Assembly (NCBI GenBank): GCA_030426545.1
Contig: JAUHYL010000031.1
Span: 1-44,246, forward strand
Reading direction: 5' to 3'
Origin: Gammaproteobacteria bacterium
Lineage (GTDB): Bacteria; Pseudomonadota; Gammaproteobacteria; Pseudomonadales; Halieaceae
Length of the DNA: 44,246 nt
Below, piece after piece: positions 24,436 to 39,306 of the stretch. The translations under genes and the position numbers were made by a program. The number at the start of each line of letters is the position of its first letter. Position 1 is the first letter of the stretch. Under the pieces are notes generated by a model. The model had not been told where the DNA came from. It made no database searches and saw only the letters and a list, made by a program, of their open reading frames with translations.

Positions 24436-25853
24436 ACCGCCCCGGGCACATCAAGGATCTGCAGACCCAACCGGAGGTCGACGAGCCGTTGGCAAACGGT
24501 GTTCCGGCAGGTCGTCTCGCCGATGTGTTGGCAGGGCCGGCACAGGGCGATAAGCCGCCGCCCTTTGATTGGCAGGCCGATGCGCACCGTGCGTTCATCG
24601 AGCAGCAGCCGCTGCGCGCCCGCGCGGTCCTCTACGTGGTGGCACTGACTGTGCTGGTGTTACTGATCTGGGCGGCCCTGGCAAAAATCGATGAGGTGAC
24701 GCGAGGCACGGGGAAGGTGATTCCCTCGCGGCAGGTGCAGGTTATCCAGTCGCAGGACGGCGGCGTGGTGACCGAGCTACTGGTGCGAGAGGGTGACGAG
24801 GTGAAAGTGGGTCAGCTGCTGGTGCGCCTTGATCAGACGCGCTCGCAATCTACCCTGCGCGAGAACCGCGCTGAGTTTCAGGCGCTGTCGTTAAAGTCTG
24901 AGCGCCTGCGTGCCGTTTTGGAAGGCACCCCGTTTGCGCCGGACGAGGCGCTGGTGGCCGCGGTGCCCGATATCTTCGAACAGGAAATGGCCCTGTTCGC
25001 TTCCACGCAGTCAGAGCTGGCCAATGCGTCCCGGATTGCCAGCGAGCAGCTTACCCAGCGCCGCGAGGAATTGTCCGAAGCGCGGGCGCGCGAAAGCCAG
25101 GCGGCGCAGTCACTGGTTCTCAGCCAGCGGGAGCTGGATGTTACGCAGCCGATGGTTGCCTCCGGCGCAGTCTCTGAAGTGGAGATTCTGCGGCTGCAGC
25201 GTGAAGTCAATCAGCTGCGCGGCGAGCAAAAGCAGGCCGCGGCGCAGATCAAACGGCTGGAATCGACCATCGTTGAGGCACAGGCGAAGCTCGGCGAAGT
25301 CGAGATCGAGTTTATGAACCGCTCGCGCCGCGAACTGGCAGAAACCTTGTCGCGGCTCAATGGTCTCCGCGAAGCGGGGCTGGGCTTGTCCGACCGGGTA
25401 AAACAAACGGAAGTGCGCTCCCCGGTGAATGGCACAGTGAAGCAACTTTACTACCACACCATCGGTGGTGTGGTGCTGCCGGGTAAAGAAATTATCGAAG
25501 TAGTGCCCGCCGATGACACGCTACTGCTGGAGGTGCGCGTGCGGCCCAAAGATATCGCCTTTCTCGTGCCCGGTCAGGAAGCGCTGGTGAAATTCACCGC
25601 TTACGACTTTGTCGTCTATGGCGGCCTGAAAGGCGTGGTGGAACACATCGGCGCGGACACTGTGATGGATGAAGAGGGCAACCCCTTCTACGAAGTCAAC
25701 GTGCGCACCCACGAGTCCGGTATTGCCCCCGACAAGCCCATTATCCCCGGCATGACGGTTGAGGTGGATATTCTCACCGGCAAAAAAAGTGTACTGGCGT
25801 ACCTGATGAAGCCGGTGTTGCGGGCCAAACAATACGCCCTGACGGAGCGATGA
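24432..25853 (+). CDS. lapC: HlyD-family periplasmic adaptor of type I secretion (LapC-like)
   Basis: Membrane-fusion protein of 473 residues linking the LapB exporter to the TolC-like outer-membrane channel. A cytoplasmic N-tail of about 64 residues is followed by one membrane helix (about 65-84, VLYVVALTVLVLLIWAALA). Then come the lipoyl/barrel strand (GTGKVIPSRQVQVIQSQDGG, GDEVKVGQLLVRLD), a long coiled-coil hairpin (about 140-330) and the returning barrel (VRSPVNGTVKQLYYHTIGGVV). The C-terminus (IPGMTVEVDILTGKKSVLAYLMKPV) is the family signature. It overlaps both neighbours by four bases, so lapB, lapC and the regulator form one transcript. Confidence 0.95.
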   Translation: MNRPGHIKDLQTQPEVDEPLANGVPAGRLADVLAGPAQGDKPPPFDWQADAHRAFIEQQPLRARAVLYVVALTVLVLLIWAALAKIDEVTRGTGKVIPSRQVQVIQSQDGGVVTELLVREGDEVKVGQLLVRLDQTRSQSTLRENRAEFQALSLKSERLRAVLEGTPFAPDEALVAAVPDIFEQEMALFASTQSELANASRIASEQLTQRREELSEARARESQAAQSLVLSQRELDVTQPMVASGAVSEVEILRLQREVNQLRGEQKQAAAQIKRLESTIVEAQAKLGEVEIEFMNRSRRELAETLSRLNGLREAGLGLSDRVKQTEVRSPVNGTVKQLYYHTIGGVVLPGKEIIEVVPADDTLLLEVRVRPKDIAFLVPGQEALVKFTAYDFVVYGGLKGVVEHIGADTVMDEEGNPFYEVNVRTHESGIAPDKPIIPGMTVEVDILTGKKSVLAYLMKPVLRAKQYALTER

Positions 25854-26488
25854 TGAAACGGTTATTTCTAACCCCATCGACAAGCGCGCGTGAGCGCTGG
25901 TGCGAAGCCTTCGAAACGGTGCTGGTCGCTGATCACGGCGTGCAGCTGTCGTCTGCCGACAGCGCAGCGTACAGCAGTCTCTGGCTCGATCTGAGCACGG
26001 TCGATGAAGCCCGCAGCCTGACGTTGCTGAAAAGCGCCCTGCAGGCCGCGCGCCCGGTCGTGGCGATGAGTGCGACCCCTGATGAGTCACAGGCTTTCTC
26101 GCTGATCAAGGCGGGTGCGCACGGCTATTGCCACGTGGAAGCCGCGCCGGAGCAGTTGCGGGAAATTGCCCTCGTTGTTGAGCACGGCGGATTGTGGATG
26201 CCTCCATCCCTGATGCAGCGCTTTCTGGCGCTCTCAACCCGCGTCGCGGTAAAGCGCGCGCCGGAGTGGCAGCAAACCGAGCAGTTAACCGAGCGAGAAC
26301 TGATGGTCGGTGAGCGCGTGGGGCAGGGCGCCTCCAATCGCGAGATCGCCGCCGACCTGGGCGTCAGCGAGCGCACCGTAAAAGCCCACCTGACCGCCAT
26401 CTTCGACAAACTCGGCGTACGTGACCGCGTGCAACTGGCCCTGACAATGAACAACATCGAGGTCCCCCCGCAACGCGCAGTGCAATGA
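25850..26488 (+). CDS. LuxR-type DNA-binding regulator with degenerate receiver, in the Lap export operon
   Basis: Protein of 212 residues. The C-terminal part (about 146-200) is a clear LuxR/NarL helix-turn-helix: LTERELMVGERVGQGASNREIAADLGVSERTVKAHL. The N-terminal part has the size and rhythm of a response-regulator receiver. Asp47 (LWLDLST) sits at the phosphoacceptor place and Ser74 at the Thr/Ser position. However, the acidic pair after strand 1 is replaced by TPS, and the conserved Lys of GYLLK is missing (GYCHVE). Phosphorylation is therefore doubtful, and it may work by dimerisation or a ligand. It is coupled by ATGA overlap to lapC and lies just before the adhesin gene, so adhesin transcription is an attractive target (inference). 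Confidence 0.85.
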   Translation: MMKRLFLTPSTSARERWCEAFETVLVADHGVQLSSADSAAYSSLWLDLSTVDEARSLTLLKSALQAARPVVAMSATPDESQAFSLIKAGAHGYCHVEAAPEQLREIALVVEHGGLWMPPSLMQRFLALSTRVAVKRAPEWQQTEQLTERELMVGERVGQGASNREIAADLGVSERTVKAHLTAIFDKLGVRDRVQLALTMNNIEVPPQRAVQ

Positions 26489-26831
26489 TCCCTATCCTCC
26501 ACGCAACACCGCGGCTAACAGCGCTAACCCCTCAACACACTCTCAGCAAGCAGTCTCTCAGCATGGCCTGACGGTGTACGGGTAACGGGGTGAGTATCCC
26601 AGCCTTCCGAACCCCGTTACCCGTACACCGTCAGGCCCTGATCCAGCCCACCTCCACAGCTACCCATCCAAACCCACCCAACGCGTGAAACACATCACAG
26701 TTCCAGCAGCCAGCCCCTCCCCCTGCCCAAAAGTACAATGTGCCGCCACCCCCCAGTCCCTAGCATCAGTAACCATCACTAATAGCCGCTAAGCGCCAAC
26801 GACAAGGGCGCCGGCACAGGGGAGAAAAACC
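26489..26831. other. intergenic region between the export operon and the adhesin gene
   Basis: About 340 bases without a gene. It contains a long perfect inverted repeat (26565-26637), then a strikingly C-rich, G-poor stretch from about 26640 to 26760 on the plus strand, then the adhesin ribosome-binding site GGGGAGAAA. No good sigma-70 promoter is obvious. The C-rich tract would suit a Rho-loading site ending the export-operon transcript, or a leader controlled after initiation. Confidence 0.5.
26565..26637. repeat. long perfect inverted repeat with GAGTATC-N7-TCCGA loop (copy 1)
   Basis: Arms 26565-26591 and 26611-26637 are perfect complements over 27 bases (left arm begins GGCCTGACGG and ends AACGGGGT). 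The 19-base loop reads GAGTATC, seven bases, TCCGA. No T-run follows on either strand, so it is not a standard terminator. A second element with a different stem but the same loop signature lies at 37597-37671. Confidence 0.9.
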
Positions 26832-29800
26832 ATGGCTGAGCAAACGATCGCAACCGTCTCGTCCATCAACGGCAAGGCCTTCGCAAGAGGGGCTGATGGC
26901 GAACTGCGCGCATTGCGGGAAGGCGACGTGCTGCGTGCGGGGGAGACCCTGGTGACGCCCGCGGGCAGCAACGTGGAGCTCACGCTTGTGGACGGCACAG
27001 TGATGCCGGTGGCTGATGTTGCCGAGATGGCGATCAGCCCGGACCTGGTGGCGTCAACAGCGAGCGCTGCAGATGAAAGCGCCGTGCAGGATGAAACCGT
27101 CAAGGAAGTGTTGCGCGCACTGGAAGAGGGCGAGGATATCAGCAGTACGCTGCAGCCCACCGCCGCCGAAGGCGATCGTGCCGCGAATGATCCGCTGTTG
27201 GATAATGACGGTCACAGCTTTGTGCGCGTGGCGCGTATTGCCGAAGATGTGCCCGAGTTCAGCGCACTGGTCGGTGCGCCGGCCGCCGTGCCGGAGCCCT
27301 TTGAGCCCGAGGCCGACCTGATCTCCGTCGATGCCCAGGATGATCGCAGTAGCACCGAGCAGGGTGTACCTGTCGACATCGACGTACAGCGCAATGACAG
27401 TTTTCTTGAAGGGTCCACGGTTACCACGGTGACGCAGGCCGAGAATGGCCGCGTCGTTCTTAACAGCGATAACACGGTGACCTATATCCCGAACGACGGG
27501 TTTGTGGGTACGGATACCTTCAACTATACCGCCACCAGTGTCGATGGTAATGGCCAGGATACGGCAACCGTGTTTGTGGAAGTGACGGGAGAGCCCGTCG
27601 AACCGCCACCCCCGCCCCCCCCGCCTGCGCCAGAGGATCCGCCAACCATCAGCATCGGCGATGACATCGTGGTTGAGGGGGATAGAGCAGAGGTTGAGGT
27701 GACCCTTTCGCGCCCGTCGGAAGAATCCGTTACCGTGCGCTTTGCGACCTCCGATGATACGGCAACCGTCAGCGGCGGTGACTACGACGCCGAGACCGGT
27801 ACGATCACCTTCGCGCCCGGTCAGACCGCCGTTACCGTGACCATCCAGACCAACGATGACAGTATCCTGGAGGGCGACGAACAGTTCCTGGTCAACCTGA
27901 GTACGCCGGACAACGCCACCATTGCAGATGGTACCGGTATTGTTGTGATCCGCGATGGCACCGAGTTGCCGCCACCGCCACCTCCACCGCCGCCTATCCC
28001 GACCGATGTGCCGCAAATTTCCATCAGTGACGCCGAGCCGGTATCCGAAGGCAATATAGCCACGTTTACCGTAACGCTGAGTGAACCCAGCACCGAAGTC
28101 ATCACCGTGAACTACACCACGCAGGACGGCAGCGCGAAGGTGGTTGATGGGGACTTTCAGGCAACGGCAGGCACGCTGGTGTTTAATCCCGGCGTCACCT
28201 CCTTGCAGGTGACAGTGCAAACCGATGACGATCTTTTTGCCGAGGGCACGGAGAACTTTTTCCTGCAGCTTGGCACTCCCTCCAACGCCACGATCGCGGA
28301 CGGCCAGGGCGAAGGCAGCATTGTCGATGAAACCGACCCCGGACCCGAGGATACGGTCTACGCCAACATTGAGGTCGATCTGGCAAGTGTTGCCGAGGGC
28401 GGCCAGCTGACTTACACAGTTTCACTGGTAGACGAAGACAATATCGCCGTGAGCGTGCCGGCTGGCAAGACGGTCAATGTTGCGCTGGACTGGAGTGGCG
28501 TTGCCACACCGGGTGTTGATACCAGCGCGTTGCCCGCCTCGGTTAACGTGAGTGGCGCAAGTAGCGCACAGTTCACGGTCGATGCACTGGATGACTATCT
28601 CGACGAGGGCAGCGAATCGTTGATCGCCACCATTAGCGGTGTTACCGATGTCGACGGCACCTTTGAAGTGGCTGCAATCGGCAGCAGCAACGCGGCCAGC
28701 AGTGCGATCACGGATGAGCCGCAGCCCGGCCCCGAAGACACGGTCTACGCCAATATCGTGGTAGACCTGCCCAGCGTTGCCGAGGGCGGACAGCTTACCT
28801 ATACCGTGTCGCTGGTGGACGACGACAACAACGTCGTCAATGTACCGTCCGGCAAAACCATCACCGTTGCGCTGGATTGGAGTGGCGTTGCCACGCCCGG
28901 CGTGGATACCAGTGCGCTGCCCGCCAGCGTGGATGTGAGTGGCGCAAATTCGGTGCAGTTCACAGTCGATGCGTTGAATGACGTGCTCTCTGAGGGCTCC
29001 GAGTCCTTGATCGCGACCATTAATAGCGTTAGCGACGTCGACGGTCTTTACGAGGCCGTTGCACCCGGCAGCAGCAACGTTGCCAACAGCGCCATCATCG
29101 ACAGCGATGAGGCGGTGTACGCCAATATCGTTGTCGATGCCGCCAGCGTGGCAGAGGGTGGCCAGCTCACCTATACCGTGTCGCTGGTCGACGAGGACAA
29201 TATCGCGGTCGCCGTGCCGTCTGGGAAAACCGTTACCGTGGCACTGGAGTGGAGTGGTGTGGCAACCGCGGGTGTGGACACCAGTGCTTTGCCGGCATCC
29301 GTAAATATCTCGGGTGCAACCGACATGCAGTTTACCGTCGATGCGCTGGACGATTACCTGGCGGAGGGCAGTGAATCACTGATCGCTACCATTACTGGTG
29401 TTACCGATGTCGACAGTACGTTTGAAGTCGTTGCCATTGGCGCAAGTAACGTTGCCAATAGCGCCATCACCGATGAACCGCAGCCCGGCCCGGAAGATAC
29501 GGTCTACGCCAATATCGTGGTAGACCTGCCCACCGTTGCCGAGGGCGGGCAGCTTACCTATACCGTGTCGCTGGTGGACGAGGACAACAACGTCGTCAAT
29601 GTGCCGTCTGGCAAAACCATCACCGTTGCGCTGGATTGGAGTGGCGTTGCCACGCCCGGCGTGGATACCAGTGCGCTGCCCGCCAGCGTGGATGTCAGCG
29701 GCGCAAACTCGGTGCAGTTCACAGTCGATGCGTTGAATGACGTGCTCTCTGAAGGTGCCGAGTCCTTGATCGCGACTATTAATAGCGTTAACGACGTCGA

Positions 29801-31997
29801 CGGCCTTTACGAGGCCGTTGCACCCGGCAGCAGCAACGTTGCCAACAGCGCCATCATCGACAGCGACGAGGCGGTGTACGCCAATATCGTTGTCGATGCT
29901 GCCAGTGTGGCAGAGGGTGGCCAGCTCACCTATACCGTGTCGCTGGTCGACGAGGACAATATCGCGGTCGCCGTGCCGTCGGGGAAGACTGTCACCGTGG
30001 CCCTGGACTGGAGCGGTATGGCGACACCCGGTGTGGATACCAGCGCATTGCCGGCCTCGGTGAATGTGAGTGGCGCCAGCAGTACACAATTTACCGTTGA
30101 CGCCGTCGATGATTATTTCGCCGAGGGCAGTGAATCATTAATCGCCACCATCTCCGGGGTGACCGATGTCGACAACACGTTTCAGACGCTGGTTATCGGC
30201 GCTCAGAACATTGCCAACAGCGCCATTACCGACGAACCCCAGCCGGGCCCCGAGGATACAGTCTATGCCAACATCGCGGTAGATCTGGCCAGTGTGGTGG
30301 AGGGCGGCCAGCTCACCTACACCGTTTCCCTGGTGGATTCAGGCAATAACGCGGTCTCTGTGCCGACGGGAAAAAGCGTCAATGTTGAGCTGAACTGGAC
30401 TGGCGCCGCGGCTTCGGGAATCGACACCGACGCGCTGCCGGCGAGTGTCGACATCACGTCCGGCTCGTCCGTGCAGTTCGTGGTGACCAGTGTCGATGAC
30501 ACTGAAATTGAGGTCAGCGAATTACTCAATGCCACGATCAGCACGGTTACCGATACCGATGGCAGTTTCGAAGCCGTTGCGGTGGGTAGCAGCGCTGCCG
30601 TCAGCTCGACGATCCTGGACAACGATTCCGACAGACCCGTCGAGCTTTCAAGACTGACCCGGGTAGAGGTTGATGAGTCCGACCTGCCCCAGGGAAATCC
30701 CGGCAGCCCCGGATTCCCCGTCGCGCTGGGTACCTTCAGCTTCTCGACCCCCGATGGTTTTGACAGCTTCATTTTTGGCGGCCAGGGCGGCGCGGTGACA
30801 CTCACCGGTCTGGCTCAGCTGCTCGGCGCAATAGGCACCGGAGCGGTGGGCACCGGCACCATCTACAACCTGGGTGAGCACGGTACGCTGGAGTTTTATG
30901 ATGCCACCGGCACACCGGAAACCGGGATGACGATCAATTTTGCTTACACGCTCACCAGCGCCGAACACCATCCGCTCACTCCGCTGCCGAATGCCACCGG
31001 TATCGGTGTGGATGACGGCTTTGACGGCTTCCTGCTGCAGGTGAGGGATGCCGGGTCTGGCCCTTTGCGGTCCGCCGGTGGCGTTATCGAGGTGAAGATC
31101 GTCGATGATGTTCCCGTGCTGCATGATCCAGATACTGTACTGGTTGACGCCGGCTCGAACGTCCCCGGAACGCCTGTTGCTCTCAACTTTGGCGATGCCG
31201 CCGGTGCGGACGGTATAGGCCAGATTGTCTTTGATGGCGTTGTCGATGGCGCGGAGGCCCGCAATGTCATCGGGCAGACCCTGCACATCGGTGATGCGTG
31301 GAAACTCTATACCTATATCAATGATGCCAGGGACACGCTCTGGTTGGCCACTTCTGATCCAGAGGCGGCTGCACCCTCCCTGATTGGTTTAACGATTACG
31401 CTTGATGGTGACAGCTACAGCGTGCAGTCAAACGCGCCCTTGTTACAGGCGGTTTCACGCGCGGTCTACGATGATGGCCCCATCCACCTGCGCTTCGGCG
31501 TGTTGGGCACCGATGGAGACGGCGATGACGCGCCGACTACACCGCTGCAGGCGGACATCAACCTGAGCATCGTGCCAGGCAGCGCCAACGTTGTGCACGC
31601 GAGCGGCGCGGACGATACGCTGGCGGCTACGCTCGGGGATGATCTTTTCGTCTGGGAACTTGCCGATGCCGGCACAACGGTAGCCCCGTCGCAGGACGTG
31701 GTCACTGATTTTGGCGCAGGCGGCCTGGATACGCTCGATGTGCGCGATCTGCTGCAACTCGAGGGGGAGGGCTCTGGCAACAGTATTGGCAATCTCCTGG
31801 AGTATCTGCACGTTACCGAGGACGCTGGCAACACGGTACTGCATATCAGCAGTGAAGGTGGCTTCAGCGGCGGTGTTTTCGATCCCGGTGAGGTCAACCA
31901 GACGATCACGTTACAGGGCGTTGACCTTGTCGGCGGCAACCCGGTTCAGGATGTCATCGAAGATATGCTGTCCAGTGGTAGACTGATTACTGACTGA
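26832..31997 (+). CDS. giant LapA-like type I-secreted surface adhesin with retention module
   Basis: Cell-surface adhesin of 1721 residues. Residues 1-130 form the LapA-type retention module (MAEQTIATVSSINGKAFARG, then DGTVMPVADVAEM). PTAAEG at 109-114 supplies the di-alanine LapG cleavage site (Ala111-Ala112), followed by GHSFVRVARIAEDVPEF. Next come a cadherin-like domain (about 172-253, NGRVVLNSDNTVTYIPNDGF), a poly-Pro linker, two Calx-beta domains (about 275-375 and 395-495) split by a second poly-Pro linker, six repeats of about 126 residues (about 510-1262), and a VCA0849-type C-terminal secretion region. That region has weak RTX-like GADDTLAATLGDDLFVWE and ends with a hydrophobic/acidic tail. 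Export is expected through LapB, LapC and LapE. GGGGAGAAA precedes the ATG. Confidence 0.95.
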   Translation: MAEQTIATVSSINGKAFARGADGELRALREGDVLRAGETLVTPAGSNVELTLVDGTVMPVADVAEMAISPDLVASTASAADESAVQDETVKEVLRALEEGEDISSTLQPTAAEGDRAANDPLLDNDGHSFVRVARIAEDVPEFSALVGAPAAVPEPFEPEADLISVDAQDDRSSTEQGVPVDIDVQRNDSFLEGSTVTTVTQAENGRVVLNSDNTVTYIPNDGFVGTDTFNYTATSVDGNGQDTATVFVEVTGEPVEPPPPPPPPAPEDPPTISIGDDIVVEGDRAEVEVTLSRPSEESVTVRFATSDDTATVSGGDYDAETGTITFAPGQTAVTVTIQTNDDSILEGDEQFLVNLSTPDNATIADGTGIVVIRDGTELPPPPPPPPPIPTDVPQISISDAEPVSEGNIATFTVTLSEPSTEVITVNYTTQDGSAKVVDGDFQATAGTLVFNPGVTSLQVTVQTDDDLFAEGTENFFLQLGTPSNATIADGQGEGSIVDETDPGPEDTVYANIEVDLASVAEGGQLTYTVSLVDEDNIAVSVPAGKTVNVALDWSGVATPGVDTSALPASVNVSGASSAQFTVDALDDYLDEGSESLIATISGVTDVDGTFEVAAIGSSNAASSAITDEPQPGPEDTVYANIVVDLPSVAEGGQLTYTVSLVDDDNNVVNVPSGKTITVALDWSGVATPGVDTSALPASVDVSGANSVQFTVDALNDVLSEGSESLIATINSVSDVDGLYEAVAPGSSNVANSAIIDSDEAVYANIVVDAASVAEGGQLTYTVSLVDEDNIAVAVPSGKTVTVALEWSGVATAGVDTSALPASVNISGATDMQFTVDALDDYLAEGSESLIATITGVTDVDSTFEVVAIGASNVANSAITDEPQPGPEDTVYANIVVDLPTVAEGGQLTYTVSLVDEDNNVVNVPSGKTITVALDWSGVATPGVDTSALPASVDVSGANSVQFTVDALNDVLSEGAESLIATINSVNDVDGLYEAVAPGSSNVANSAIIDSDEAVYANIVVDAASVAEGGQLTYTVSLVDEDNIAVAVPSGKTVTVALDWSGMATPGVDTSALPASVNVSGASSTQFTVDAVDDYFAEGSESLIATISGVTDVDNTFQTLVIGAQNIANSAITDEPQPGPEDTVYANIAVDLASVVEGGQLTYTVSLVDSGNNAVSVPTGKSVNVELNWTGAAASGIDTDALPASVDITSGSSVQFVVTSVDDTEIEVSELLNATISTVTDTDGSFEAVAVGSSAAVSSTILDNDSDRPVELSRLTRVEVDESDLPQGNPGSPGFPVALGTFSFSTPDGFDSFIFGGQGGAVTLTGLAQLLGAIGTGAVGTGTIYNLGEHGTLEFYDATGTPETGMTINFAYTLTSAEHHPLTPLPNATGIGVDDGFDGFLLQVRDAGSGPLRSAGGVIEVKIVDDVPVLHDPDTVLVDAGSNVPGTPVALNFGDAAGADGIGQIVFDGVVDGAEARNVIGQTLHIGDAWKLYTYINDARDTLWLATSDPEAAAPSLIGLTITLDGDSYSVQSNAPLLQAVSRAVYDDGPIHLRFGVLGTDGDGDDAPTTPLQADINLSIVPGSANVVHASGADDTLAATLGDDLFVWELADAGTTVAPSQDVVTDFGAGGLDTLDVRDLLQLEGEGSGNSIGNLLEYLHVTEDAGNTVLHISSEGGFSGGVFDPGEVNQTITLQGVDLVGGNPVQDVIEDMLSSGRLITD
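28350..30620 (+). repeat. six tandem ~126-residue adhesin repeats, with a 759-bp duplicated double unit
   Basis: Repeat units open with (D/E)xVYANIxVD near 28359, 28738, 29113, 29500, 29872 and 30256, each followed by AEGGQLTYTVSLVD and SGVATPGVDTSALPASV (variants in units 3 and 6). Units 2-3 (about 28741-29499) and 4-5 (about 29500-30258) are nearly identical at DNA level with an exact offset of 759 bases (253 codons), showing a recent double-unit duplication. Confidence 0.93.
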
Positions 31998-32047
31998 TGG
32001 CTGGAACGAGTAACCGGTCTTTACAGAAGCAGGCGGGGTGAAGCGCG

Positions 32048-32368
32048 ATGCCGTTCGTAAAACGCGATAGCAGTGCACAAATCTGTGCCGTGGCGGCACA
32101 GGCAAACGCCGAGTGTAGCGAGGAGGTTGCGGCGGATGATGCCGATTTGCGCCGCTTTCTCGCTACGCTGGGTGAGGGTGTAGCGGCACCACTGGATGCC
32201 AGCGATCAGGATTTTATCCGGGTGCTGGAGGATTTGCTGGAGTTGCTCACAGACAAGGGTGTCATCCTGTTCACGGAGCTACCCGAATTTGCCCAGCGCA
32301 AGGTGCTCAACCGTCGTCGCTTGCGCTCAGAGCTGTCACAGGCGCTGAACTTGCTTGAGGACGAGTAG
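32048..32368 (+). CDS. small conserved protein downstream of the adhesin (often called tryptophan synthase beta-like)
   Basis: A 106-residue, acidic, probably cytoplasmic protein starting MPFVKRDSSAQICAVA. The conserved-looking core is FIRVLEDLLELLTDKGVILFTELPEFAQRKVLNRRRLR. I recall similar short proteins in marine gammaproteobacteria carrying the misleading label tryptophan synthase subunit beta-like; nothing here resembles TrpB catalysis (no PLP site, far too short). A good ribosome-binding site (GGCGGGGTGAAG) precedes the ATG 50 bases after the adhesin stop, so it is likely in the adhesin transcript. Its role, perhaps in adhesin production or localisation, is unknown. Confidence 0.75.
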   Translation: MPFVKRDSSAQICAVAAQANAECSEEVAADDADLRRFLATLGEGVAAPLDASDQDFIRVLEDLLELLTDKGVILFTELPEFAQRKVLNRRRLRSELSQALNLLEDE

Positions 32369-32370
32369 GC

Positions 32371-32400
32371 GGCGATCTGATCGCCTGAATCAGGGTTTTT
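32371..32400 (+). terminator. possible terminator after the adhesin/small-protein transcript
   Basis: GGCGA-TCTGA-TCGCC (32371-32385) forms a short hairpin, and TTTTT occurs at 32396-32400, ten bases later. The gap makes it a weak intrinsic terminator, but it lies correctly between the convergent small-protein and lapD genes. Confidence 0.4.
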
Positions 32401-32448
32401 CGACGTAGATAACGGTCGTCACAACCCGGCCTGGTGGAGACCCGGCGG

Positions 32449-34368
32449 CTATTCCGTCAACCTGATACCCGGCCCCGTGGCACCGTCCATGCCCAGTTGG
32501 CGCAGCGTAGTCCACTGTGCATCGCTGTGCACACCCTCGGCGATTACGCGCACGCCAATGGCATGTCCCAGGGTACAGAATGCGCTCAGCAAGGTCTGGC
32601 TGTTGTTGTTCCCAGTGATGTCACGCACGAAGCTGGCATCGATCTTCAGGTAGTCCAATCCCACGTCGTGCAGGCGCCCCAGCTCGGCCAGCCTGTGGCC
32701 GGCGTGCTTGATGCCCACGGTGACGCCGCGAGGCTGCACCACCGTGCACAGCTGTTTGAACGCTGCCAGGTGACGAAAAACGCTGTCTTCGGTCAGTTCC
32801 AGCCAGAGTAGGGTTGCAGCCTCTTTATTCTGCTCAAGCTGCTTGTCCAGCCAGCCCGGAAAGCGCTTGTCGTACAGCGCTGCCGCACTGAGATTTACGG
32901 CCACCGGCTGTGACTGTTCCGTTGCTCGTGCCAGGGCCATTGTTACCACGGCTTTATCGAGCTCACCTTCGAGTTTCAGGCGATGTATCCATGGGAGGAA
33001 CTGCGCGGCGGGTAAGCGGTTGGCTCCCTCTGGGAGCGTGACCGGGGATTCGAAGTGAATCAGATCGCCTTGATGGTCCAGCACAGGAAAATGGGCGAGA
33101 CCCAGTTGGTCCGATTGCAGGGCATGCTCCAGCACACTTTGCCAGTGCTCGGCCCGCTGCTGGGTGGGTTGTGCAAACGGTTCTTCGGGGGCGCAGTAGA
33201 CAAGCGTTGCGTGCTCGCCCTCCTGGGCTGTCGTCAGTGCGGTATCCAGCCGGGTGAGCAATTGCGCGACCGTATCGCCCGGTTGGTAGATCGTGGCTGA
33301 ACCGGGCGTGGAACATTCGTGATCCAGCTGGTGTTCGCTGAACACTCGGTTGATCAGTTCAAGAACGTCGCGCGCGAGCGCTTCAGCTTCGAACTCTCCC
33401 GGGGCGACCAGCGCAATGTCGGAGCCATTCAGGCGGCCGCCGGCCCAGCCGCTATTGGGCGCCAGAAATCGGATCAGCTTGTCCCCGATGTCACACAGAA
33501 TCTCATCGATTGCCTTGCGCCCGTAGTCACTGTTGAGCTGCGCAAGTCTTCCAATCCGCAACAGGACCAGGCTGCCGGAGGATTCCGCTTCGCGACTCTC
33601 CAACAGGGCGGCCAGCTTTTGCAGGTAGGGTTCGCGCTGGGTCAGGCCGGTGACGGGATCAATTTGCGCTTCACGTTGCCAGCGTTCCAGGCGCTGCGCC
33701 TCCTGGTCAAGCACGCCTTTTACGTGTGTAGACATGCCGTTCATGGCCCGCACCAGCTGTTTGAACTCCAGGGTTGCCGGTTCCGGAATCGTAATAAAGC
33801 GGCGCGCCCGCAGCGCATCCGCCTGTCTTACCACTGCATTCAGCGGTCGCAGAATGCCCTTCAATGCTCGTGCGCCAATCAGCCCGGCGAGCACGGCTGC
33901 GAGCAGGAAGATGCCCGCCTGACGGATGCTGCCGCGCCATAGCTCGCCGTAGGCAAAGCGCGAATGGCTGCGCAGGGTGAGTGTGCCCGCCTGCGTCCAG
34001 CCTGCCTGCACGCTGGCCACGCCCGGTTCTGCTTTGATGGGGAAAAGGCGCACGAACCAGTCCGGGGCGCCACGGGCCGGACGTTCATCGACGCGCAATA
34101 TGGCACTGTTCCCCTGTGGATCAGTGAGTTCGATGTGTTCGTAAAAGCCGGTGTCGAATTGTGCGGCCAGGGTCAGTTCCAGCAATACTTCGTCAGCGCC
34201 CTGCTGCGAGAGCGACAGGGCAAGTGCGCTGGCGTTATCTGCATTTTTCATGCTGAGCTGCTGATTCAGATAATCCCGTGCAGAGATTGTCGTCACCCAG
34301 ACATTGATGGTGAACACCACTGCGAGCAGCAGGGCAATCGCCACCCACAATTGCTTATACAAAGACAT
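32449..34368 (-). CDS. lapD: LapD-like c-di-GMP receptor with degenerate GGDEF and EAL domains
   Basis: Inner-membrane receptor of 639 residues that senses cytoplasmic c-di-GMP and controls periplasmic LapG. TM1 is about 7-28. The periplasmic LapD_MoxY-type domain carries QAGWTQAGTLTLRSH, with Trp124 matching the LapG-binding Trp of Pseudomonas LapD, and then FAYGELWRGS. TM2 is about 150-169, then HAMP. The GGDEF domain (about 230-390) has NGSDIA in place of GGDEF. The EAL domain (about 405-635) has FES for EAL and KHAG for the metal-binding DDFG, so neither synthesis nor hydrolysis is expected. LKIDASFVRDI and VIAEGVHSD keep the fold. GGAGAC precedes the ATG; lapG is 27 bases upstream on the same strand. 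Confidence 0.94.
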   Translation of the reverse strand: MSLYKQLWVAIALLLAVVFTINVWVTTISARDYLNQQLSMKNADNASALALSLSQQGADEVLLELTLAAQFDTGFYEHIELTDPQGNSAILRVDERPARGAPDWFVRLFPIKAEPGVASVQAGWTQAGTLTLRSHSRFAYGELWRGSIRQAGIFLLAAVLAGLIGARALKGILRPLNAVVRQADALRARRFITIPEPATLEFKQLVRAMNGMSTHVKGVLDQEAQRLERWQREAQIDPVTGLTQREPYLQKLAALLESREAESSGSLVLLRIGRLAQLNSDYGRKAIDEILCDIGDKLIRFLAPNSGWAGGRLNGSDIALVAPGEFEAEALARDVLELINRVFSEHQLDHECSTPGSATIYQPGDTVAQLLTRLDTALTTAQEGEHATLVYCAPEEPFAQPTQQRAEHWQSVLEHALQSDQLGLAHFPVLDHQGDLIHFESPVTLPEGANRLPAAQFLPWIHRLKLEGELDKAVVTMALARATEQSQPVAVNLSAAALYDKRFPGWLDKQLEQNKEAATLLWLELTEDSVFRHLAAFKQLCTVVQPRGVTVGIKHAGHRLAELGRLHDVGLDYLKIDASFVRDITGNNNSQTLLSAFCTLGHAIGVRVIAEGVHSDAQWTTLRQLGMDGATGPGIRLTE

Positions 34369-34395
34369 TAGCAGTCTCCAGTTGCCTTGTTGGTT

Positions 34396-35082
34396 TCATC
34401 CCAGTCCCTCTGCGGCGGCTCGGCGCAACACATCGCGCCAGCGAGAAAGCCTGGCGGCGGGTTTGCGCGAAGCGGGTTGGGCCGCGCCGCCAACCCAGAT
34501 GCCATTGCTGTTGAATCCATACACGGGCGTGAGATCGTTTCGCAATGACGCTTTTTGAATCTGTGGAACAATATTATCCAGCACCAGCGGGTCAGCGGTC
34601 GCGGTCGGGTAGTAGGCCAGTACCATGTGCGGCTGACTTCGCTCACCGCCGGCTCCTCCGAGCTTCGCTTTCACATAGGTGATACGCAGCCTGTCGACAT
34701 CCACGCCGGCCAATACCAGCATGGTGTATTTGGCAATCGCAAAGTCCTCACAATCGCCCATGCCGCGGCCGAGGAGTTCCAGTGGTGTCGCCCAGTAGTC
34801 GTGTTGCTGCCAGATGCTGATGTCAGTCACCCAGCGCACGCGTGAATTGAAAAAGTGGTTGGCGCGTTCCAGCTTCGCCGGTTCCGGCAAGTTTCGCATG
34901 TGTGCGATCTCGCGCTGCCAGTTGTCGACCTGCTGCGCGGTCTGTTCCCCGTAGCGGCTGGCGGCGAGTTTACGCATGCGATCAAAGTCGACTTGCGCGA
35001 CCGCTACGGCCGCTGCAAGAAGCGTTGCGTAGAGCGTGACATGCGAAAAAATGGATGGGCGGTGGATGCGGGTCAGCGACAA
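34396..35082 (-). CDS. lapG: LapG-like periplasmic cysteine protease (bacterial transglutaminase-like)
   Basis: Calcium-dependent periplasmic protease of 228 residues that cuts the LapA-type retention module after the TAA motif. A signal peptide is visible (IFSHVTLYATLLAAAVAVAQ). The catalytic triad is Cys111 in GRGMGDCEDFAIAKY, His152 in SQPHMVLAYYP and Asp169 in LVLDNIV. Asp110 and Glu112 flanking the Cys match the known calcium ligands. WVTDISIWQQHDYWATPLELLGRG is the conserved substrate-cleft segment. The start appears to be TTG (complement of 35080-35082); the only in-frame ATG lies at residue 36 and would remove the signal peptide. The gene is upstream of lapD in one transcript and divergent from the TolC-like gene. 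Confidence 0.94.
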   Translation of the reverse strand: MSLTRIHRPSIFSHVTLYATLLAAAVAVAQVDFDRMRKLAASRYGEQTAQQVDNWQREIAHMRNLPEPAKLERANHFFNSRVRWVTDISIWQQHDYWATPLELLGRGMGDCEDFAIAKYTMLVLAGVDVDRLRITYVKAKLGGAGGERSQPHMVLAYYPTATADPLVLDNIVPQIQKASLRNDLTPVYGFNSNGIWVGGAAQPASRKPAARLSRWRDVLRRAAAEGLG

Positions 35083-35349
35083 CTGATGGCACTCACTGTT
35101 GCAAAGCGCTGCACGCTGTCAGCGCCTGGTTCGTGGATGGAGGGCCGATAGTAGCTGATTTCGATCAGCGACGGGTCAGGGTGCGGACAATTACTGTAAA
35201 ACTGCCAGTATTCTGTGAAATAGTTCCCGAAGTTAAATTCCTCCCGCTGCCAAACTGCGAGAAAATGGGGAGGAAACCGACCGGCGCAACGATCATATCA
35301 TTTGAACGTCCGCGGACTAAGGCGGGCGACTGAAACAGGGGCGATAATA
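35083..35349. promoter_or_regulatory. divergent control region lapG-lapD / lapE
   Basis: The intergenic region holds two symmetrical elements: an inverted repeat TTCCTCCC (35238-35245) with GGGAGGAA (35268-35275), and a perfect 10-base palindrome GTCCGCGGAC (35308-35317). The stretch around 35185-35215 is AT-richer (ACAATTACTGTAAAACTGCC, then AGTATTCTG) and is the likely promoter zone. No regulator can be assigned. Confidence 0.4.
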
Positions 35350-36831
35350 ATGTTATTCATGGCAGGGTTTGCAAAGCAGGGCTTACTGGGGCTGATCTTT
35401 TCTTCCGGCGCTGTCGTTATGACAACTGCACAGGCGCAGGATGCAGCACAACTGCCGCCTGAAATTTCCGGGCTGCGTGAGACCGTGGTACAGGGTGTAA
35501 CGGTTAGTCCCCGCGTGAACGCAAGCTGGTATCAATTTGAAGCTTCCCGCGAAGCGGAGCGCGGCGCCTGGGGCGGATACCTTCCCAGCGTGGATCTGTA
35601 CGCGGAATATGGCGAAGAAGAGCGCGAAACGCCTCTGGTCGATCTCGGTGACTACACGCGTGATGCGACGCGTTTCAGCGTCACCCAGATGTTGTTCGAC
35701 GGATTTGCCACGCGCAACGAAGTGGCGCGTCTGGGCTTTGCCAAGCTGTCAAACTACTACGAGTTCAAGCGCACGTCCGAGGATGTGGCACAGGAGGTTG
35801 TGGATGCCTACCTCGATACCGTCCGTTATCAGCACCTGGTGTCATACGCGCAGGATAACCTCGAAGTACACCGCAGGTTATACGATCGTATTGCCGAGCG
35901 TACCGGCGGTGGCGTCAGTCAGGGAGTGGATCTCGACCAGGCCATCGCGCGGGTAAGCCTGGCGGAATCCAATCTGGTTACCGAGTCGGCGAATCTGCAT
36001 GACGTATCAATGCGCTTCTACCGCCTGGTGGGCAGCATGCCTGCGGCAGATCTCGCCGTGCCCGCAGTGCCGTCCGGGCAGATACCCGAGATGCGCAGCA
36101 GGGCATTGGAGCTGGCCTACCAGCGCAGCCCCGTGATTGACGCGGCCATAGAAAATCTGCGCTCTGCCCAGGAAGCACTGGATGGAACCAACGCACCGAT
36201 GATGCCGCGGTTGGACTTGCGCTACCGCAATGAGGTTGAGCATGACACCGACGGGCTGGACGGTCGCTTCGATGAGGAGGCAATCGAGTTGGTGCTGTCC
36301 TACAACCTGTACCGCGGCGGCTCAGACAGTGCGCGCAAACGGGAGTTTTACAACCTCTATAACGCGGCTATCGAGGAGCGCAAACAAGCCTGTATCAATG
36401 TGCGCCAGGAAGTCATGATCGATTTCAACAATATTGATGCGCTGCAGAACCAGGTAGTGGTATTGGAGCGCAATCTCAGCGCCCAGGATCGCACCCGCAA
36501 GGCCTACCGCGATCAGTTCGACATCGGCCAGCGCTCGCTGCTGGACCTGCTGGACAGTCAGAACGAGTATTTTGATACGCAGCGCGCTTATATGGCGGCG
36601 GTGACGGATCTGGTGAAAGCGCAGTCCAGCGCGTTGTCCAACATGGGCCTGCTGCTGGCCGCCATGGAAGTCGATGGGTTGAACGCAGATAAACTGGCGG
36701 AACTGGATCTTGACCTGTCTCGGGACGAGGACGACGACAATGCGCGTGATCTCTGTCCCCGCGAACCCGGTGCAACCGCAAGGGTAGACCGCGAAGCGCT
36801 GTACTCGCGCCTTGCCGGACGTGCGGACTAG
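35350..36831 (+). CDS. lapE: TolC-family outer-membrane channel (LapE-like)
   Basis: Outer-membrane efflux channel of about 493 residues, expected to complete the LapB-LapC export path for the adhesin. A signal peptide (to about TAQAQD) is followed by two TolC-type repeats: VNASWYQFEASREAERGAWGGYLPSVDLYAEYG opens the first, and YQRSPVIDAAIENLRSAQEALDGTNAPMMPRLDLRY the second. AYRDQFDIGQRSLLDLLDSQNEYFDTQRAY is the diagnostic helix-turn near the C-terminal third. A short acidic then basic C-terminal tail (SRDEDDDNARDLCPREPG) extends beyond the barrel core. I chose the ATG at 35350 (MLFMAGFAKQ) with CAGGGGCG before it over an in-frame ATG at 35302. Confidence 0.94.
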   Translation: MLFMAGFAKQGLLGLIFSSGAVVMTTAQAQDAAQLPPEISGLRETVVQGVTVSPRVNASWYQFEASREAERGAWGGYLPSVDLYAEYGEEERETPLVDLGDYTRDATRFSVTQMLFDGFATRNEVARLGFAKLSNYYEFKRTSEDVAQEVVDAYLDTVRYQHLVSYAQDNLEVHRRLYDRIAERTGGGVSQGVDLDQAIARVSLAESNLVTESANLHDVSMRFYRLVGSMPAADLAVPAVPSGQIPEMRSRALELAYQRSPVIDAAIENLRSAQEALDGTNAPMMPRLDLRYRNEVEHDTDGLDGRFDEEAIELVLSYNLYRGGSDSARKREFYNLYNAAIEERKQACINVRQEVMIDFNNIDALQNQVVVLERNLSAQDRTRKAYRDQFDIGQRSLLDLLDSQNEYFDTQRAYMAAVTDLVKAQSSALSNMGLLLAAMEVDGLNADKLAELDLDLSRDEDDDNARDLCPREPGATARVDREALYSRLAGRAD

Positions 36832-36875
36832 ATCTCTTGTTTGAAAAAGGTGCGCGTCTGCGCTGACGCTTCTCT

Positions 36876-37463
36876 CTAGGTGGTAAGGTCGCGCGGCTTG
36901 CGCCACATCAGCCACAGCGGGGGTGCCGATTTCGCAAAGCGAATCTCCCGCATCACTTCAAATCCGTGCCCCTGGTAAAAGCCCAGGTTGCGCTCCTTGG
37001 AGTTCTCAAGGTAGGCGGGCAACCCTTCGTCATCGCAGCGCCTGAGAACGTGAGAAATGAGCGACGAGCCAACACCCTGACCGCGGGCCGAGGGTAGTGC
37101 CCCGATCGCAAAAAGGTAGTAATGCGGTTCACTGGGGTGATACTTCTCCGTCACCATACCGCTTCTCGCCATACGATAGGCGCCTTTCATCCCTCCCAGG
37201 CTCAGCATCTTCCACACGTTTGAAGGACGATAGCTCCACTGCAACTTCTGGTTAGGCCCCAGCCACACGGCAGCACCGCGCTCTGCGTGATCCAGGTAGG
37301 AAAGATTGTGCTGCAGGAATGGCTCCAGCGTGATTTCGAAAAAGGGCACCAGGGTGGAGGGGTGATTGCACGACCAGTTCATGACAGGATCGTCGGCAAA
37401 GCACTCGGCGAGTATCTCGATCGTGCGTCTTTCGTTGGCGCTGTCTACCGGCGTAAAGTCCAC
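36876..37463 (-). CDS. GNAT-family N-acetyltransferase
   Basis: Predicted acetyl-CoA-dependent acetyltransferase of 195 residues. Motif A is FAIGALPSARGQGVGSSLISHVLRRC, with the pyrophosphate-binding R-G-Q-G-V-G loop, and motif B is LENSKERNLGFYQGHGFEVM. The N-terminal half (NERRTIEILAECFADDPVMNW) is like the large Pfam group of unknown GNATs. Substrate unknown. It is separated from the upstream sulfatase gene by about 290 bases that include a terminator and a long hairpin, so it has its own promoter. Confidence 0.88.
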   Translation of the reverse strand: MDFTPVDSANERRTIEILAECFADDPVMNWSCNHPSTLVPFFEITLEPFLQHNLSYLDHAERGAAVWLGPNQKLQWSYRPSNVWKMLSLGGMKGAYRMARSGMVTEKYHPSEPHYYLFAIGALPSARGQGVGSSLISHVLRRCDDEGLPAYLENSKERNLGFYQGHGFEVMREIRFAKSAPPLWLMWRKPRDLTT

Positions 37464-37596
37464 GGTATTCCCTTCGCAATACTTCTCATGCGCAGTATAG
37501 ACCGCGCAGGAGTGCGCCTGCCAACTTCCTGAAAGAACTCACTGTGGACCGGATAACTGATTCTCTGGTCTTCTACCGGCTGGAAGCGGCAGTCAA

Positions 37597-37671
37597 TGGC
37601 CCGATGTCACCGGGGTTGCGTGGCGAGTATCTTGGCAGTCCGAGCTACGCAACCCCGGTGACATCGGGCCA
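37597..37671. repeat. long perfect inverted repeat with GAGTATC-N7-TCCGA loop (copy 2)
   Basis: Arms 37597-37621 and 37647-37671 are perfect complements over 25 bases (left arm begins TGGCCCGATG). The 25-base loop is GGC, GAGTATC, seven bases, TCCGA, GCT. The loop signature is shared with the element at 26565-26637 although the stem sequence differs. It lies between the sulfatase terminator and the acetyltransferase gene, with no T-run. Confidence 0.9.
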
Positions 37672-37704: not shown

Positions 37705-37732
37705 AAAAAAAAGAGCCTCCAGAGAGGCTCTT
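37705..37732 (-). terminator. intrinsic terminator of the arylsulfatase gene
   Basis: On the minus strand AAGAGCCTC, a 4-base loop and GAGGCTCTT (complement of 37711-37732) run into an eight-base T-tract (complement of 37705-37712), about 25 bases after the sulfatase stop. This is a textbook Rho-independent terminator. Confidence 0.93.
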
Positions 37733-37755
37733 CAGTATCACGACGGTCCTGAATA

Positions 37756-39306
37756 CTATTGAGGACCCGACGGAACGGTGAGTTTTTCCATGACCTGGTC
37801 CAACGAGAAGCTGGCCGCTTTCTGCCGCGGGGGATACTTCTTGAACGTCGCCAGGAACTGCCCCACGTAATCCTGCGCAGGAACAAGCAGATAGGCCCTG
37901 TCGATCAGCCAGTCGAAGTAAGTGTTGGATGTGATCAGCGCGCGCTCGTAGGGATCGCGGCGCAGGTTTACGATATAGGGCAGGCGCAATGGCACGAAGG
38001 GTTCGATCCATGCCTGCAGAGTGGCCTCCGCGCGCTGCTCCATGAAGATTAACTTCCAGTCATTGTAGCGTAAAGCGGTCAGGTCGCCGTCGTCGGAGAA
38101 GTAGAAAATCTCCTTGCGCGGCCCCATTTCGTTCTCGCCCGTCAACAGCGGTAAGAAGTTATAACCGTCCAGGTGAACCTTGTAGCGGCGACCGATCGCA
38201 CGGTGACCGTCCAACAGTTTCTCCTTCACATCCGGCTCGCCGGCGGCCGCGAGGAATGTCGGCAGCCAGTCCATGTGGTGCATGATCTCGTTCGAGATGG
38301 CACCTGCCTCTATCTTTCCGGGCCACCGCACCATGGCGGGCACACGCCAACCACCTTCCCAGTTGGTGTTTTTCTCCCCACGGAAGGGCGTCATGGCCGC
38401 GTCGGGCCATGTATTCATGTGTGGGCCGTTGTCGGTGGAGTAGAACACGATGGTATTTTCGGCAATACCCAGTTCATCCAGCTTGTCCAGGAACAGGCCA
38501 ATGTGGTCATCGTGTTCCAGCATGCCGCAGGTGTATTCGTCCGCGCGCGGCTGTTTTTTCTTGCAGGCGGCCATCTTCTCTGGGCTGACGTGGGTGCGGA
38601 AGTGCATGCGCGTGCCGCTCCACCAGACGAAGAACGGCTTGTCTGCCGCGACTGCCTTCTCGATGAATTTCATGGCTTCTGCGGCGGTGTCATCGTCCAC
38701 GATTTCCATGCGCTTCTTGGTCAGCGGGCCGGTGTCTTCGATCTTGCCATCGGCCGACGAGCGAATAACGCCACGCGGACCATACTTTTCTCGGAACGCC
38801 GGGTCCGTCGGGTAGTCCTCGTTCTCCGGCTCCTCCTCGGCATTGAGGTGATAGAGGTTGCCGTAGAACTCATCGAAACCGTGGTTGGTCGGCAGGTGTT
38901 CATCGCGGTCACCGAGGTGGTTCTTGCCGAACTGTCCAGTCATGTAGCCGTGGTTCTTCAGCAGGCCAGCAATGGTCGGGTCTTCCTCCTGCATGCCCAA
39001 CTCTGCGCCGGGCAGGCCGACTTTACTTAGGCCGGTGCGGAAAACGGACTGTCCCATGATGAAAGAGGCGCGGCCCGCTGTGCAGCTTTGCTCGCCGTAG
39101 TAATCGGTGAAAATCATCCCCTCTTTGGCGATGCGGTCAATGTTGGGTGTTTGATAGCCCATCAGGCCCATGGTGTAGGCGCTGATATTGGACTGTCCCA
39201 CATCGTCACCCCAGACCACCAGGATGTTGGGTTTGTCCGCGGCTTGCGTGGCTATCGAGCAAAGCGTCAGTAGCCCTGCAAGCGCGAATCGCATAGCAGT
39301 GTTCAT
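37756..39306 (-). CDS. secreted arylsulfatase (formylglycine-dependent sulfatase)
   Basis: Periplasmic or secreted sulfatase of 516 residues hydrolysing sulfate esters. A signal peptide (MNTAMRFALAGLLTLCSIATQAA) precedes DKPNILVVWGDDVGQSN, where the paired Asp residues bind calcium. The modification motif is SCTAGRASFIMGQ, with Cys75 the residue converted to formylglycine by FGE or anSME. FGKNHLGDRDEHLPTNHGFDEFYG and YSTDNGPHMNTWPD supply the remaining conserved Lys/His and Asp/Asn metal and sulfate ligands. The VRWPGKIEAGAISNEIMHHMDWLPTFL stretch is typical of family S1. Substrate may be an algal polysaccharide or aryl sulfate (inference). No maturase gene is in the window. A terminator follows. 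Confidence 0.94.
   Translation of the reverse strand: MNTAMRFALAGLLTLCSIATQAADKPNILVVWGDDVGQSNISAYTMGLMGYQTPNIDRIAKEGMIFTDYYGEQSCTAGRASFIMGQSVFRTGLSKVGLPGAELGMQEEDPTIAGLLKNHGYMTGQFGKNHLGDRDEHLPTNHGFDEFYGNLYHLNAEEEPENEDYPTDPAFREKYGPRGVIRSSADGKIEDTGPLTKKRMEIVDDDTAAEAMKFIEKAVAADKPFFVWWSGTRMHFRTHVSPEKMAACKKKQPRADEYTCGMLEHDDHIGLFLDKLDELGIAENTIVFYSTDNGPHMNTWPDAAMTPFRGEKNTNWEGGWRVPAMVRWPGKIEAGAISNEIMHHMDWLPTFLAAAGEPDVKEKLLDGHRAIGRRYKVHLDGYNFLPLLTGENEMGPRKEIFYFSDDGDLTALRYNDWKLIFMEQRAEATLQAWIEPFVPLRLPYIVNLRRDPYERALITSNTYFDWLIDRAYLLVPAQDYVGQFLATFKKYPPRQKAASFSLDQVMEKLTVPSGPQ

Follow-up and report, generated by a model that had tools for sequence, protein, structure and literature searches.

A loop-conserved, stem-variable hairpin family dispersed in a Halieaceae genome suggests a hairpin-ended mobile repeat of an undescribed kind

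Two long hairpins with unlike stems and a shared loop raise the question of what kind of element keeps its loop, pairs its stem perfectly and still lets the stem sequence change. The question arose from an initial annotation of the stretch of Halieaceae DNA analysed here (44,246 nucleotides of contig JAUHYL010000031.1, hereafter the window), which had described two such hairpins 11 kb apart, both intergenic and neither with a T-run. Rereading the sequence directly and by script bore out these points, together with the perfect 27-bp and 25-bp stems. The two hairpins, their parts and their neighbours are as follows.

26565-26637: hairpin 1 as a whole, a perfect 27-bp stem around the loop GAGTATCCCAGCCTTCCGA (direct reading and script)
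26565..26591, + strand: left arm of hairpin 1, 27 nt, the right arm being its perfect complement
26592..26610, + strand: conserved loop of hairpin 1, 19 nt, GAGTATCCCAGCCTTCCGA
26611..26637, + strand: right arm of hairpin 1, its outer end taken as the element's outer edge by analogy with the relative G023
26540..26564, + strand: inner flank on the 5' side of hairpin 1, weakly conserved across the family (24-copy consensus ...CAGaAAGcgaCaCCAAAT) and diverged here
37597-37671: hairpin 2 as a whole, a perfect 25-bp stem followed inward by G.T, G-C and C-G and the loop GAGTATCTTGGCAGTCCGA
37598..37624, + strand: left arm of hairpin 2, 25 bp perfect when T37597:A37671 is counted, with GGC opposite GCT next
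37625..37643, + strand: conserved loop of hairpin 2, GAGTATCTTGGCAGTCCGA, three mismatches from the consensus loop
37644..37670, + strand: right arm of hairpin 2
37580..37597, + strand: inner flank of hairpin 2, the CTGGAAGCGGCAGTCAAT region, resembling the flank AGCGGCAACAAAT of other copies
37710..37733, - strand: T-run terminator of the sulfatase gene, separate from hairpin 2, which does not terminate this gene
25850..26488, + strand: LuxR-type regulator (GerE domain), upstream of hairpin 1
26832..31997, + strand: large Calx-beta/LapA-like protein, downstream of hairpin 1
36876..37463, - strand: GNAT acetyltransferase, adjoining hairpin 2
37756..39306, - strand: sulfatase, adjoining hairpin 2

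Among inverted repeats of the window with loops of up to 80 nt, hairpins 1 and 2 are the longest, the next arms measuring 12 and 11 bp; shuffling the window 60 times with a first-order Markov model gave a longest arm of 15 bp, against the 27 bp observed. Folded as single-stranded DNA, both hairpins gave z-scores between -10.0 and -11.0 on either strand, which 0 of 200 shuffles matched. The shared loop signature proved to be enriched well beyond the window: GAGTATC-N7-TCCGA occurs exactly 27 times in the host genome (G000; an assembly of 4.35 Mb in 141 contigs, 97.85% complete), against a single occurrence of the reversed control pattern, and 26 of the 27 matches sit in hairpins—the exception, L014, lying inside a predicted gene. 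Allowing up to three mismatches to the consensus loop added three further places, two of which are hairpins; L014 and L030 were dropped as chance loop matches, and L001 and L006, which differ by one base, are probably one hairpin broken at contig ends. The host carries about 27 hairpins, rather than only the pair in the window. Their stems are 22-31 bp long (17-38 bp in relatives, some of them cut by contig ends), and in one tandem pair, at L020, the second hairpin (L021) has a broken left arm. The initial annotation had stressed that the stems differ in sequence; this stands insofar as arms differ between copies, as detailed below, but most host stems are related to one another and share the consensus GGCCTGACGGTGCCAGGGTTGCGAGGT, so that they are not arbitrary. 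In the 24-copy consensus, AAT precedes GGCC and no tag follows.

The contrast between stem and loop is the central observation. Divergence between host copies is 32% in the arms and 6% in the loop, in a comparison of 24 copies that left out L014 as a chance match, L001 as the presumed same element as L006, and L021, whose broken arm would have added mismatches. Each hairpin in this set has 1.04 mismatches on average with its own arms, against 8.68 when arms are swapped between copies. Across the 23 complete copies (both L001 and L006 left out), 97.6% of 621 cells are paired, compared with 31.8-39.3% in slid control structures; two-sided changes occur at 22 of 28 pairs and in 110 of the 621 cells, values that 0 of 500 shuffles reach. 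Pairing that is either maintained or freshly copied, as had been proposed from two copies, is thus supported across many, with changes on both sides of the stem; copy number, divergence and covariation together strongly support a dispersed, stem-variable, loop-conserved family. The position of the few mismatches is not uniform: in a count that took L001 instead of L006, the outer 22 pairs hold 524 Watson-Crick cells and 4 others, whereas the five pairs on the loop side hold 98 and 22 (Fisher p 1e-13). Among the outer cells that depart from the commonest pair, 104 are changed on both sides to another Watson-Crick pair and 4 otherwise, with up to four pair types at a single stem position. Both G-T and A-C mismatches are rare, with 9 of each among 646 cells.

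The host, one of the marine bacteria that carry the family, falls in the same genus group as Halioglobus sp. NAT121, and Halioglobus belongs to Halieaceae. Among 57 genomes, host included—those compared being drafts or MAGs—the loop pattern matched in six and sat in hairpins in three, namely the host, NAT121 (G014) and Pseudohalioglobus sediminis NY5 (G027). Both relatives carry a near-identical loop on stems unlike those of the host (e.g., GGCCCGGGGCGGAAACGCTTTCAGGCC in NAT121), which extends the combination of one loop with unrelated stems to two related genomes. Single loop matches in G029, G054 and G056 were dropped as chance. In 85 genome-contig stretches, hairpins were found, among the matches listed, in Halioglobus NAT121 and Pseudohalioglobus NY5; viral contigs were rejected as carriers, since all five of their loop matches were not hairpins. 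The arms of relatives are less perfect, with mismatches spread along the stem rather than restricted to the loop side: A hairpins of G014 show 76 two-sided against 37 other cells, type-1 ends of G023 show 16 against 15, and type-2 ends show 34 against 57 in an ungapped count that is partly misregistered and overstates mismatches.

Relatives also reveal that the hairpin is part of something larger. In NAT121, the end hairpin bounds a longer repeat, of which a copy in L078 measures about 1 kb, and the order in relatives—and once in the host—is an end hairpin, a branched C hairpin, an inverted C hairpin and a second end hairpin, with four stems that are long, perfect or nearly so, and mutually unlike. 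The single full composite of the host (L172, 921-1550) consists of four adjacent hairpins with perfect, mutually unlike stems of 27, 31, 24 and 26 bp around loops of 19, 84, 83 and 25 nt, the second C hairpin having a diverged core; nearly all copies in the host are solitary end hairpins. The C core holds small covarying helices. End loops resemble one motif, GAG...CTTTTCGA or GAG...CCTTCCGA, of which the end loops GAGTGTGCTTTTCGA and GAGGGAGTCTGCTTTTCGACCGA of other genomes seem to be versions, and we infer a common ancestry of the A, B and C loops. Inspected by eye, the G291 halves form inverted repeats that share TTGCTAAGCGGGC... at both ends. Within one composite, at about 5465-5590 of L078, eleven tandem copies of AGCAGTCC were observed. 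Many contigs of NAT121 start or stop inside a composite, and copy number there is probably underestimated.

The boundaries of the repeat could be followed best in G023, which has 13 type-1 and 13 type-2 loops, 11 of each in facing pairs and the other four unpaired. Facing ends lie 491-718 bp apart, start to start, and seven whole composites measure 565-761 bp. Likeness between copies is 52-63% over the 40 nt inside the ends and 33-37% over the 40 nt outside, so that similarity falls at the outer boundary of each end hairpin. A scripted test on all seven composites found no target duplication at the edges above the level of random pairs. In none of ten composites was there an open reading frame of at least 60 amino acids with a positive coding score, a score trained on the window and hence weaker for relatives. 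When we looked for autonomous copies, every facing pair in G023 was shorter than 0.72 kb, and in the other genomes contigs break off within the repeat.

The distribution of the C core is narrow. The sequence GGCTCGCGACCGACYRAGGG, at up to one mismatch, was present in 6 of the 57 genomes in 1, 24, 30, 17, 1 and 2 copies, and a C core or hairpin-borne loop likewise in 6 of 57, host included. Five of 390 genomes sampled across the order matched the core—the host, G027, G291, G104 (another family, in a hairpin) and G281 (no hairpin)—and the host alone matched exactly among 369 genomes sampled across the class. Neither the host composite against 72,556 plasmid records nor the NAT121 composite against 50,697 phage records returned a match, and on these two comparisons we set aside an origin from plasmids or phages.

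We then turned to the sites themselves. At the hairpin 1 site, no such hairpin lies in the gap of the same gene pair in G004, G008, G010, G014, G015 or G019, the pair being recognised by eye; at the hairpin 2 site, none follows the sulfatase orthologue in G003, G004, G014, G015, G018 or G019, the next gene being recognisable in G015 only. This comparison, in which L279 showed a different gene arrangement and which left out L281-L284 and a second G014 match, judges insertion by presence and absence between species, not strains. With gene neighbours called by a home-made codon-usage caller trained on the window rather than taken from annotation, 43 element clusters lie between 24 convergent, 18 tandem and 1 divergent gene pairs, compared with 7, 16 and 7 for the window's own 30 pairs; the count omits L001, L006, L014 and L021, and 24 of 67 clusters have no neighbour on one side. 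As for recurring flanking genes, the largest cluster comprised 11 of 242 flanking proteins. L019 and L208 show one shared gene pair whose gap is occupied in G000 by an A hairpin and in G014 by a C hairpin.

Dispersal, loop conservation and paired stem drift characterise the family, as do discrete edges in one relative. We regard it as fairly probable that the window hairpins are end-hairpin copies of a non-autonomous, hairpin-ended (MITE-like) Halieaceae repeat that is read via its loop and copied from arm to arm. A mobilising enzyme supplied in trans would recognise the loop together with the shape of the paired stem, and would probably do so on single-stranded DNA; because stem sequence would go unread, the stem would be free to drift. 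A mismatch in the outer stem would be erased by template switching: the pairs near the loop would act as primer, and one arm would serve as template for the other. On this view, most host mismatches lie in the last five loop-side pairs because so short a stretch cannot prime such a switch. Copies between genes and away from promoters may be tolerated insertions. Arm copying is inferred from the host pattern and may not be general, since copies in two relatives (G014 and G023) fit it less well; the host genome may represent an older, corrected state, and the pattern ascribed to arm copying could also arise from selection for pairing. Going further, one may tentatively ask whether the family represents a new class of mobile DNA, whose enzyme would recognise nothing but the loop and the pairing of single-stranded ends, and whose arms would be rebuilt, one on the template of the other, while the element moves or afterwards; the stem would then be free, self-correcting and lineage specific, the loop a fixed address and the branched C hairpins a second recognition module. 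We consider this possible but doubtful.

Among the readings that the initial annotation had left open, a structured RNA or 3'-UTR element must be weighed first—an RNA hairpin with a loop-binding protein or RNA partner, shaped by ordinary compensatory evolution. It would account for the strong covariation, the conserved 19-nt loop, the preference for gene 3' ends and the covarying small helices of the inner C hairpin. However, evolving RNA stems normally pass through G-U, and single-step change is expected to leave wobble pairs behind, whereas only 4 of 528 outer-stem cells depart from Watson-Crick pairing in spite of the variety of pair types per position, and G-T is no commoner than A-C. Orientation is mixed as well: the hairpin runs with the genes at five and against them at three of eight tandem host sites. 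Searches against Rfam returned no match for the window at gathering thresholds, microRNA-precursor matches below the family cut-offs for three composite loci, and a single, unrelated cobalamin riboswitch for six loci of relatives. The near absence of wobble pairs in the variable part of the stem therefore favours a mobile composite end over a structured RNA, which we judge rather improbable.

Several features would suit a REP/REPIN family whose mover is a Y1 (RAYT) transposase. Elements of the GTAG and CGTC families (PMC3733652, PMC3116915) are likewise dispersed intergenic palindromes that occur in inverted pairs, mostly after genes, and show two-sided hairpin changes; the lack of target duplication fits too. 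The inverted doublet is seen in the halves of the composite, of which the host has one. Moreover, a Y1_Tnp gene occurs in 5 of 6 positive but only 11 of 30 negative genomes of the family. Other features part company with this explanation. REPIN ends are kept and the middle varies (PMC3733652, PMC3116915), while in the Halieaceae hairpins the loop is kept and the stem varies. Described REP stems span 5-13 bp, as opposed to 22-31 bp in the host, and G-T pairing is said to be frequent in GTAG REPs, whereas outer stems of host copies hardly ever contain it (REP values from PMC3733652). Nor does the 24-copy consensus show an unpaired GTAG or CGTC tag at the base of its stem.

The enzyme search, which covered the Y1 family, weighs further against a RAYT. 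The initial annotation had pointed to a linked recombinase; looked for as Y1/RAYT, none was found linked, and no mobilising enzyme emerged. No Y1_Tnp was found in the nearly complete host assembly, and although a RAYT gene is typically flanked by its own repeat, none of these hairpins was found when the surroundings of the Y1 genes in G012, G014, G023 and G027 were read out to about 2.1 kb. The G012 stretch contains one 9-base match to the core, which is not part of any hairpin. Beside the G027 gene stands another palindrome: REP-like copies of TCGCGGCTGTGGCCGCTCCTAC are repeated beside the Y1_Tnp match at 1708-2755 of L257, and these palindromes are a separate REP/RAYT system in the same family. 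We consider movement of the present hairpins by a RAYT unlikely. In its working, the family is most like REPINs or single-strand transposon ends, yet, the inverted doublet apart, the REP features that we tested (foot tag, short stem, RAYT gene beside the repeat) were not found. A single genome of the same order, G042, holds 49 Y1_Tnp matches, many of which show a regular pattern of truncation.

A role in the chromosome, as a cruciform that binds protein and acts in organisation, in supercoiling or as a roadblock between convergent genes, would explain the conserved loop, the perfect stem, the avoidance of promoters and the excess of convergent sites (24 of 43). We nevertheless regard it as very unlikely, with the patchy occurrence in 6 of 57 genomes, the absence at orthologous sites of relatives and the G023 edges, which behave like those of a discrete repeat, all speaking against it. 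Transcription terminators, suggested by the position after genes, are barely credible given stems without a T-run and several copies lying beyond a T-run terminator (37733-37710 next to hairpin 2 and, by eye, at L009, L010, L012 and L023).

How, then, does the hairpin-ended mobile repeat compare with other known systems? Bacterial MITEs and small repeats such as ERIC, RUP, Correia and BOX, as generally known, share its non-coding nature, size below about 1 kb, inverted halves and discrete edges; unlike them, each end here is a complete hairpin, each half carries a second, branched hairpin, and neither a target duplication (in seven copies) nor a parental transposon was found. Terminal inverted repeats and the lack of coding capacity would also suit a classical MITE of a DDE transposon, but its target site duplication was not detected in any of the seven G023 composites. 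IS200/IS605 elements, again as commonly understood, resemble the family in having subterminal hairpins read by shape and loop bases and no target duplication, and differ in that here the stems of the two ends are mutually unlike and the host genome has no Y1 enzyme. Double-hairpin and palindromic repeats of mitochondria are likewise dispersed hairpins thought to be mobile, although they belong to organelle genomes, and we know of none with a four-hairpin composite or a fixed loop. By eye, no integron attC recombination cores were recognised at the hairpin foot. Template switching has been proposed to keep hairpins of rRNA and microRNA genes paired, and that account (PMC8794818), like the present one, has both arms changing jointly and the stem returning to perfect pairing; what differs here is that the repeat is bacterial and dispersed, in some 27 parallel copies. 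The element itself was not found in the literature searched, signature sequences included, a search that covered subscription journals thinly.

The combination of a fixed loop with a free stem inverts the usual conservation of palindromic repeats, and a dispersed family of this form speaks for a type of mobile repeat, ended by hairpins, that has not been described. Some 27 copies in one genome amount to a natural experiment on how the arms of an inverted repeat stay matched, and the concentration of mismatches beside the loop makes arm copying by template switching directly testable in bacteria. It also opens a search for an enzyme that would read the loop on hairpin ends, whatever the stem sequence. 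Finally, a tandem arrangement was seen at positions 3000-3570 of L069, where three 174-bp repeats, each with one A hairpin, are followed by a solitary right half of a hairpin.
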